NCBI GenBank assembly: GCA_015065585.1
Contig: SVQC01000004.1
Span: forward strand, 1 to 64,000
Origin: Oscillospiraceae bacterium
GTDB lineage: Bacteria > Bacillota > Clostridia > Oscillospirales > Acutalibacteraceae
DNA length: 64,000 bases
Direction: 5' to 3'
A model generated the notes under the pieces. That model was not told the origin of the DNA. It made no database searches and saw nothing but the letters and a program-made list of their open reading frames with translations. Positions 9,712 to 11,449 of the stretch are shown here, in pieces. Made by a program: the position numbers and the translations under genes. Positions within the stretch are counted from its first letter, which is position 1. Each line of letters starts with the position of its first letter.

Positions 9712-9786
9712 GCCCACATAGTTCAATGGATAGAATAAAATCCTCCTAAGATTTAGATGTAGGTTCGATTCCCACTGTGGGTGCCA
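9712..9786 (+). tRNA. tRNA-Arg (anticodon CCU)
   Basis: A full cloverleaf can be drawn. The acceptor stem GCCCACA/TGTGGGT has a terminal G-T pair, with discriminator G and encoded CCA. The D arm closes GTTC with GAAT. The anticodon stem AAATC/GATTT encloses the loop CTCCTAA, giving anticodon CCT at 9745-9747. The T loop is TTCGATT. The T stem GTAGG/CCCAC has one A-C mismatch. It decodes the rare Arg codon AGG. A strong terminator follows immediately, and then the hairpin array. Confidence 0.93.
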
Positions 9787-9820
9787 AAAAACTCTCGTTT
9801 ACTTGAACGAGAGTTTTTTT
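9787..9820 (+). terminator. Rho-independent terminator after tRNA-Arg
   Basis: AACTCTCGTT pairs perfectly with AACGAGAGTT around a 6-nt loop, followed by a run of T. Confidence 0.93.
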
Positions 9821-10017
9821 ATCCATTGCGAAAGCAATGGTATATCATCACGCGTTAGCGTGTATATCATCAAAGGCGGCACACCGCCTTTGTATATCAT
9901 CACACCTTTAGGTGTGTATCAAAAAAATGCTTTCGCAATGATGATATACAACTTCTTGCAAAGTTGATGATATGCAATTCCTGCGGAATTGATGATATAC
10001 AATGCTCTGCATTGATT
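9821..10017. repeat. Array of eight short hairpins separated by a constant 8-nt spacer, in two opposed halves
   Basis: Small inverted repeats, each beginning with C and ending with G, sit at 9823-9840, 9849-9862, 9871-9892, 9901-9916, about 9926-9940, 9949-9966, 9975-9991 and 10000-10014. Their arms differ from unit to unit (CCATTGC/GCAATGG, CACGC/GCGTG, CAAAGGCGG/CCGCCTTTG, CACACCT/AGGTGTG, CAACTT/AAGTTG, CAATTCC/GGAATTG, CAATGC/GCATTG), with loops of 2-6 nt including GAAA. The linker between them is constant: TATATCAT in the first half and its reverse complement ATGATATA in the second (once ATGATATG). The switch occurs around 9917-9925. The fifth hairpin is imperfect and is a reverse copy of the first (shared CATTGCGAAAGCA). 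There is no coding potential. The function is unknown to me. Confidence 0.9.
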
Positions 10018-10040
10018 TGACTCTGATATTATGCTATACT
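10012..10040 (+). promoter_or_regulatory. SigA-type promoter at the edge of the hairpin array
   Basis: TTGATT (10012-10017) and TATACT (10035-10040) are 17 nt apart, with TATG before the -10 as in extended -10 promoters. The -35 box overlaps the last hairpin of the array. It would give the hydrolase gene at 10196 a leader of about 150 nt. Confidence 0.55.
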
Positions 10041-10195: not shown

Positions 10196-11449
10196 ATGAG
10201 TAAGAAAAATATTATAATAATGATAAGCGCTTCAGTGCTTTTGGTTGCTGTTATAGTTACCGTTTTATTGTTATGGTTACTGCCTGATAGCGGTTCGAAC
10301 AAAAAAAGCAAATCGCCCTCAAGACCTGTAACTGCTTCTTCAAGTGTTACCGCCGCTGTTAAAGAACGTCCCGAAAAGATAAAAGAGGTGTTTTCTTTTA
10401 GCGGTAATTTAACTTCTCCCGCCTTCAGATATGAAACCTTTCATGATTCACAAAACGGTAATGTAATTCCATACCGTTTATATGTTCCTGTAAATTATGA
10501 CTCGTCTAAAAAGTATCCTATTGTTTTATTTTTACATGGTGCCGGTGAAATAGGCAGTGACAATGAAAAACATGTAGGTAACGCTAAGAAAATGTTTATG
10601 AATAATGCAGATTTGATGTGTGAAGCTATTGTTGTTTGCCCACAAACTTATGAATGGTGGAATTTGGACAGAGAGTATCCGGGCGACCAAAAGGGGACTT
10701 TAGGCAGCGTATTGCATTTACTTACCGAAATACAAAAGACTTATTCCTGCGACAGAAACCGTATTTATGTAACCGGTCTTTCAATGGGTGGCTATGCAAC
10801 GTGGAATTTACTTTCGGAGTATGGCCATATATTTGCGGCAGGTATGCCGGTTTGTGGTGGCGGCGATTCGAGTAAGGGTTATGAGCTAAAGGATATACCA
10901 ATAAGAATTTATCACAGCAAAGACGACCCCACCGTATCTTTTTCCGGCTCAGAGAGAATGTATAATGCCATTATAGCCGCAGGCGGAAAAAAGGTTAAGT
11001 TTATTCGTCTTGACGGTTTGGGACATAATTCTTGGGACTATGCCTATTCTGACAGAGAAGGCTTTTGCTGGATGTTTGCTCAGAATAGAACCCAAAATCC
11101 GACAGGCACATATGAGAGTGTACCTTATTTCAGAGTGGTAGATTCAAACGGTAAAACTGTTATTTCGGAGAAAAACGTACAGTTCGTTTTTTCACGGGTT
11201 ATTTTTGGTGAAAATAATGCCACTACTGTAGATTTGGTTTTAAGTAAAACTGGAGAAAACAAACTTAAAACTGCTTATGAATCAAATTCGTCAAAAGAAT
11301 TTACGGTTTATTGGCATACTGAAAAATTATATACCTTTACCGTAAGCGGTCCGCCAATAGATAATACTTTTTCTATTGCAGGTATTTTTGATGCTGAATC
11401 GGCAAAGGCTTTTTGCACTTCTATTGAAAAACAAATAGCTCAAAACTAA
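10196..11449 (+). CDS. Membrane-anchored alpha/beta hydrolase (esterase/peptidase-like) with extra C-terminal domain
   Basis: A 417-residue protein. Residues 5-30 form one membrane segment or uncleaved signal anchor, followed by a Ser/Lys/Pro-rich linker to about 60. Residues about 77-298 are an alpha/beta hydrolase of the PHB-depolymerase/carboxylesterase type: the oxyanion-hole region PIVLFLHGAGEIGSDNE, nucleophile Ser196 in GLSMGGYATW, Asp243 or 244 in HSKDDPTVS, and His277 in DGLGHNSW. Residues about 305-417 form a separate beta-rich domain I do not recognise. It should act on the outer face of the membrane; the substrate is unknown. A putative ECF promoter identical in plan to that of the sigma operon suggests co-regulation. 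The gene is monocistronic, ended by the hairpin at 11471-11509. Confidence 0.85.
   Translation: MSKKNIIIMISASVLLVAVIVTVLLLWLLPDSGSNKKSKSPSRPVTASSSVTAAVKERPEKIKEVFSFSGNLTSPAFRYETFHDSQNGNVIPYRLYVPVNYDSSKKYPIVLFLHGAGEIGSDNEKHVGNAKKMFMNNADLMCEAIVVCPQTYEWWNLDREYPGDQKGTLGSVLHLLTEIQKTYSCDRNRIYVTGLSMGGYATWNLLSEYGHIFAAGMPVCGGGDSSKGYELKDIPIRIYHSKDDPTVSFSGSERMYNAIIAAGGKKVKFIRLDGLGHNSWDYAYSDREGFCWMFAQNRTQNPTGTYESVPYFRVVDSNGKTVISEKNVQFVFSRVIFGENNATTVDLVLSKTGENKLKTAYESNSSKEFTVYWHTEKLYTFTVSGPPIDNTFSIAGIFDAESAKAFCTSIEKQIAQN

Follow-up and report, generated by a model that had tools for sequence, protein, structure and literature searches.

Hairpin arrays with constant linkers form a probably mobile element family behind tRNA genes of gut Clostridia, linked to a matching S23 gene

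The window, a stretch of 64,000 nucleotides from an Oscillospiraceae bacterium, contains an array of unlike hairpins joined by constant linkers. This array belongs to an unnamed family of small DNA elements which lie behind the tRNA genes of gut Clostridia together with a matching S23 gene, and which are probably mobile. The stems of the family covary; its elements are anchored at tRNA 3' ends, carry their own terminator and are linked to S23. The linker type follows the S23 subfamily, the elements turn over between species, and they also form tandem, co-oriented chains of array, gene and array. Good support exists for the mobility and for the link to S23; the enzymology is what we infer. On balance we favour a reading in which the elements are small, mobile and anchored at the 3' ends of tRNA genes, the array acting in cis and S23 in trans.

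Anatomy of the array and its family

The array in the window is 197 nt long (9821-10017) and consists of six constant linkers between seven unlike full hairpins and one half-hairpin. It begins with ATC-hairpin 1 and continues with three left units of linker and hairpin, an A-rich centre, the half-hairpin and three right units before it ends in TTGATT. The features of the locus are as follows.

9712..9786, + strand: tRNA-Arg(CCT), host gene and anchoring site (ARAGORN; Rfam tRNA)
9787..9820, + strand: intrinsic terminator with A-tract, stem and T-tract (inverted repeat)
9821..9840, + strand: left end ATC and hairpin 1, CCATTGC GAAA GCAATGG (sequence)
9841..9848, + strand: left linker 1, TATATCAT
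9849..9862, + strand: hairpin 2, CACGCGTTAGCGTG (fold)
9863..9870, + strand: left linker 2, TATATCAT
9871..9892, + strand: hairpin 3, CAAAGGCGGCACACCGCCTTTG (fold)
9893..9900, + strand: left linker 3, TATATCAT
9901..9916, + strand: hairpin 4, CACACCTTTAGGTGTG (fold)
9928..9940, + strand: half-unit 5, TGCTTTCGCAATG, which repeats the 5' arm and loop of hairpin 1 in inverted orientation (inverted repeat)
9941..9948, + strand: right linker 3', ATGATATA, complementary to the left linkers (inverted repeat)
9949..9966, + strand: hairpin 6, CAACTTCTTGCAAAGTTG (fold)
9967..9974, + strand: right linker 2', ATGATATG
9975..9991, + strand: hairpin 7, CAATTCCTGCGGAATTG (fold)
9992..9999, + strand: right linker 1', ATGATATA
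10000..10014, + strand: hairpin 8, CAATGCTCTGCATTG, right end of the element (fold)
10012..10040, + strand: promoter with -35 TTGATT on the right end of the element, 17 nt, and TATACT
10196..11449, + strand: esterase-like, membrane-anchored gene behind the array (Pfam/NCBIfam)

The original prediction described eight small palindromes; the array is real, but only seven of them are full hairpins and the fifth is a half-hairpin. This fifth unit had been taken for a reverse copy of the first. It is indeed an exact inverted copy (all 13 nt of TGCTTTCGCAATG are complementary to CATTGCGAAAGCA in hairpin 1), but the copy comprises the 5' arm and loop only. The two opposed halves were recovered as proposed, with the left linkers at 9841, 9863 and 9893 complementary to the right linkers at 9941, 9967 and 9992. 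The further claim of one linker on the left and its complement on the right is borne out for TATATCAT and ATGATATA, but the right linker at 9967 ends in G. The predicted position between a tRNA terminator and a promoter also agrees with the features found at 9786-9819 and from 10012. The linker-hairpin-linker motif occurs twice in the window and in none of 100 shuffles. The whole element is inverted-symmetric with the ends ATC...GAT, and before some arrays of the family a tRNA 3' fragment is present in duplicate.

Nine left ends are present in the source genome (1.52 Mb) and many more in related genomes, and therefore the array represents a real, dispersed family, a point not made in the original prediction. 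The left-end motif was found in 32 of the 245 genomes of the order; whereas a reversed control was found in one. Most loci were supplied by a strict pattern scan of GTDB genomes, which selects for good arrays, and most are metagenome-assembled. Among the matches listed, the genomes were mostly Clostridia / Oscillospiraceae MAGs from animal guts.

Comparison of the copies, which had been named as a way to challenge the original prediction, showed that the stems differ and yet stay paired. The mean left, right and last stems are 5.0, 4.9 and 5.5 bp, versus 2.2, 2.4 and 3.0 bp after the halves were swapped between copies. The combination of constant linkers with variable, still-paired stems is thus confirmed across copies, far above shuffles. 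The half-unit also matches hairpin 1 at 8.45 of 9 positions among copies (shuffled maximum, 7.07), and mismatched pairs are rare (e.g. L068 and the second array of L149). This half-unit rule holds in most of the elements tested of types A, B, C and D, whose sequences are unrelated; the exceptions are the B loci L239 and L166 and the C locus L112, and in type D the terminator itself is the first hairpin. The repetition of this rule across types is the strongest sign of a shared mechanism.

Two other arrangements were observed. In L045, L046, L054 and L059, the same linker and hairpin units run in one direction without an inverted half. Pairs of type-A left ends lie exactly 280 bp apart in three genomes (G120:C13, G279:C31 and G223:C35).

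The S23 partner gene and linker types

Behind many right ends is a gene for a 115-aa S23 protein (PF05635, E = 2e-19; TIGR02436, E = 7e-22), which usually starts about 46 nt after the array. The gene is decayed in several copies, and most array copies are without it. In the window, the esterase-like gene (10196..11449) fills the position that S23 has in other copies. The original prediction suggested looking for a co-occurring transposase, reverse transcriptase or nuclease; the linked partner is the S23 gene instead, and, apart from one recombinase-like ORF at L118, no recombinase, transposase or reverse transcriptase was seen in the flanking ORFs of the loci read. To our knowledge, S23 alone has no catalytic activity.

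A protein search that was blind to the arrays found S23 homologues in 109 of the 245 genomes. All S23 proteins of at least 80% identity are accompanied by the TATATCAT array. At 61-68% identity, the accompanying arrays mostly follow this plan with a different linker (TATGGAATCA / TGATTCCATA), and more distant S23 proteins have yet other linkers. At least four hairpins were present upstream of S23 in 25 of the 26 loci with enough upstream sequence, versus 17% of random stretches. Moreover, type-A arrays occur in 11 of the 12 genomes with a type-A S23 and in 21 of the 233 other genomes. The array types are also clustered on the S23 tree (9 label changes versus a shuffled mean of 29.8), a figure which is only indicative because the rows include near-duplicates and the labelling is crude.

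The link between S23 and the arrays is not general to S23, since none of 30 classical S23 genes elsewhere in the phylum has a hairpin array; the idea that such arrays accompany all S23 genes was therefore ruled out. These wider-phylum S23/IVP genes (L253-L282) often have short direct-repeat words on either side, such as CTAGTA (five and nine copies, L253), CAGGAG (14 copies, L266) and ACTCAT (nine copies, L262). At least four copies of such a word were found upstream in 11/30 and downstream in 7/30, with 7% in the control.

On the favoured reading, the element would consist, in order, of its own terminator directly after the tRNA CCA, the inverted-symmetric hairpin array, an outward promoter with its -35 on the last hairpin, and one or a few small genes. 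The array's own gene would be that of the S23-family (PF05635) four-helix-bundle protein. Since every S23 subfamily is paired with a linker word of its own, the linkers and the hairpin fold are probably recognised by this protein, on single-stranded DNA or RNA, and it probably helps units to be inserted or exchanged at tRNA ends. An S23 protein that reads the linkers between folded hairpins would explain why the linkers are constant, why the stems are free but paired, and why the linker type co-varies with the protein. The binding by S23, the strand that forms the folded ladder and the manner in which units are copied or moved are what we infer.

Anchoring at tRNA 3' ends, turnover and promoters

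The window element begins directly after the CCA of tRNA-Arg(CCT). Among the 69 elements with enough upstream sequence, 40 have an intact same-strand tRNA that ends 32-46 nt upstream, versus 2 of 600 control positions, and the tRNAs of these 40 elements represent 14 isotypes. In many of the remaining elements, the intact tRNA is 150-550 nt upstream and a repeat of its 3' end directly precedes the terminator; such a second copy was found in at least six further elements, and in three more by eye. These displaced tRNA 3' ends look as if a later insertion had taken place at the tRNA end. A copy of the tRNA T-arm at every right end was also considered and rejected as not general (10/82 versus 3.4% in the control, mostly in one sublineage).

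The tRNA 3' end is also duplicated by other small inserts of about 140-220 bp that are located there (L003, L094, L120, tRNA-Glu L296, and tRNA-Thr L160/L290). In L003, L094 and L120, where the insert lies upstream of the array, it also contains a hairpin (e.g. ACAGTCCGGTGGACTGT) and T-arm-like sequence in antisense. Yet another array type, CAACTAAATCC...GGTGAAAT, directly follows the CCA of tRNA-Ser, tRNA-Tyr and tRNA-Leu in the congener G094 (L298, L310, L290 and L302) and that of the source genome's own tRNA-Ser(cga) (L176).

In G094, a near-identical type-D element (linker ATTATTCATT) is located behind eight tRNA genes (Thr, three Arg, Cys, Ser and two Leu). These copies align solidly over the terminator and the whole array, starting at the first base behind the CCA; the following genes are mostly different. 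Because one terminator thus recurs behind eight tRNAs, with homology that starts at the CCA, the terminator in the window probably also belongs to the element and not to the tRNA. Three tRNAs of the source genome have orthologues in G094, as judged by 72-79% identity upstream, and their contents differ: type A versus D at Arg-cct, C versus D at Arg-ccg, and none versus D at Arg-tct. Further differences at Cys, Tyr, Ser-gga, Leu and Lys concern tRNAs paired by anticodon only, which is weaker than aligned flanks. Near-identical type-A arrays in unrelated flanks have a sharp left end at the T-tract or terminator, and their right end is mostly 3 or 4 nt past the last hairpin. Sharp ends and differing content at tRNAs are what a mobile element would leave behind. 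For type-A elements, a clean empty site with a target duplication was not found (one genome represents the genus of the type-A S23 locus), and no movement was seen within one strain.

Co-oriented tandem chains of tRNA, array, gene and array were found at several loci (e.g. L119, L137, L149, L322, L323 and L324), and both arrays share the same terminator in four of ten tandem pairs. No common function of the cargo was found, since eight of ten cargo proteins tested had no Pfam match. The chains resemble gene cassettes at an anchor. It is conceivable, though we hold this more tentatively than the favoured reading, that they represent an undescribed class of mobile gene cassettes, in which S23 and its cognate ladder arrays insert terminator/promoter cassettes in tandem at the 3' ends of tRNAs of any isotype.

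The 3' ends of tRNA genes are targets of the integrases of phages and conjugative elements. The array units might thus be passive remnants that were moved by such elements and have no mobility of their own, which we regard as unlikely. The displaced tRNA 3' fragments before arrays resemble att relics, a large serine-recombinase-like ORF (by eye) is located upstream of one of them (L118), and the tRNA-Arg(CCT) orthologue of a congener (L252, G336:C19) is split by an insertion immediately behind its anticodon, which contains a tRNA-like sequence that shares this anticodon region. However, integrases normally match one tRNA; whereas here one element follows many tRNA isotypes with the same boundary after the CCA. 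The phage and plasmid collections contained no match to the array, the four matches in viral contigs all cover the same 52-nt span, and a passive origin does not account for a linker type that tracks the S23 subfamily.

An exact TATAAT lies 17 nt past TTGATT in 16 other right ends (chance expectation, about 0.0008 per position), and the start codon in these copies is usually 45-50 nt further on, for S23 and a few other genes. With six linker copies that end at the -35 of this promoter and S23 directly behind the array, the linkers could be DNA-binding sites of S23 at its own promoter, and the solo arrays could be regulatory sites of other genes. This operator function seems improbable, since it would leave the covarying stems, the half-unit rule, the boundary at the tRNA CCA and the carried terminator unexplained, and right ends of the GTGATT type are without this promoter.

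Folding, known systems and significance

Complementarity between the left and right linkers allows one strand to fold into a three-tier ladder; the predicted structure has three linker helices parted by junctions, with two side hairpins each. Compared with dinucleotide shuffles, the single-strand fold gave z = -9.1 for DNA and -10.3 for RNA. An alternative pairing of 13 bp between the arm of hairpin 1 and the half-unit is exclusive of the ladder. The RNA value and the covarying stems are what would be expected if read-through from the tRNA made a ladder RNA that serves in termination, in tRNA 3' processing or as a decoy. We give this little credence, because a strong terminator precedes the array, the array ends in a promoter reading away, and both strands fold alike owing to the symmetry of the array. 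The Rfam 15 scan of the array (E up to 1) gave nothing plausible, and its weak sub-threshold matches centre on the tRNA and the terminator.

The REP/BIME elements with RAYT (REPtron) combine dispersed palindromic units with one dedicated protein family. The arrays are similar in having palindromic units, many dispersed solo copies and one protein-coding partner per group. It is nevertheless very improbable that they are classical repeats, akin to REP/RAYT or MITEs, which an unlinked transposase mobilises. Stems are conserved in REP and MITE families; whereas in the arrays they differ between units and copies and the linkers are constant. Moreover, the linked gene encodes a PF05635 S23 protein instead of RAYT (HUH Y1) or a DDE enzyme, and the arrays are anchored at tRNA 3' ends. 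Stems could also be kept perfect, in the absence of selection, by templated quasi-palindrome repair, but this leaves the constant linkers, the half-unit rule and the S23 link unexplained.

The S23/IVP proteins are known mainly from the intervening sequences (IVS) of 23S rRNA, for example in Coxiella burnetii, where a role in mobility was proposed but never shown (PMC4990558). The S23-bearing copies of the array share with these IVS the PF05635/TIGR02436 protein (which the window copy does not carry), and both are short elements with complementary ends, located at a stable-RNA locus and sporadic in distribution. However, the IVS interrupt a helix of 23S rRNA; whereas the arrays follow tRNA genes at the 3' end, are multi-hairpin with type-specific linkers upstream of the gene, have their own terminator and promoter, and include many solo copies.

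Avd, the accessory protein of diversity-generating retroelements, and PF05635 were reported to be structural homologues (PMC10053308). A single-sequence structure model of S23, of low confidence (pLDDT 56), weakly matches 4dwl and 2gsc, which might be consistent with this. Unlike in these retroelements, neither a reverse transcriptase nor a template or variable repeat was noticed beside the arrays in the loci read. The arrays are also comparable to integron attC sites, since both are structured sites with variable but paired stems, associated with small genes in co-oriented tandem at an anchor. The differences are that no integron integrase was noticed beside the tandem arrays, that the anchor is a tRNA 3' end, and that each array unit carries a terminator and a promoter and is a ladder of eight units.

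A match to a described family had been named as an objection to the original prediction; none was found in Rfam, in phage and plasmid records or in the literature searched. No description of the element was found in the literature searched on palindromic repeats, tRNA-downstream repeats and S23, a scope that leaves aside preprints and most subscription articles.

The many natural examples, a large data set, in which S23 subfamilies are paired with subfamily-specific structured sites at tRNA ends make recognition and mobility directly testable. If the cassette reading is true, it would also give a function to the S23 proteins of the ribosomal intervening sequences. The arrays also expose a set of terminator-promoter modules, so far little noticed, which rewires what follows the tRNA genes in gut bacteria.
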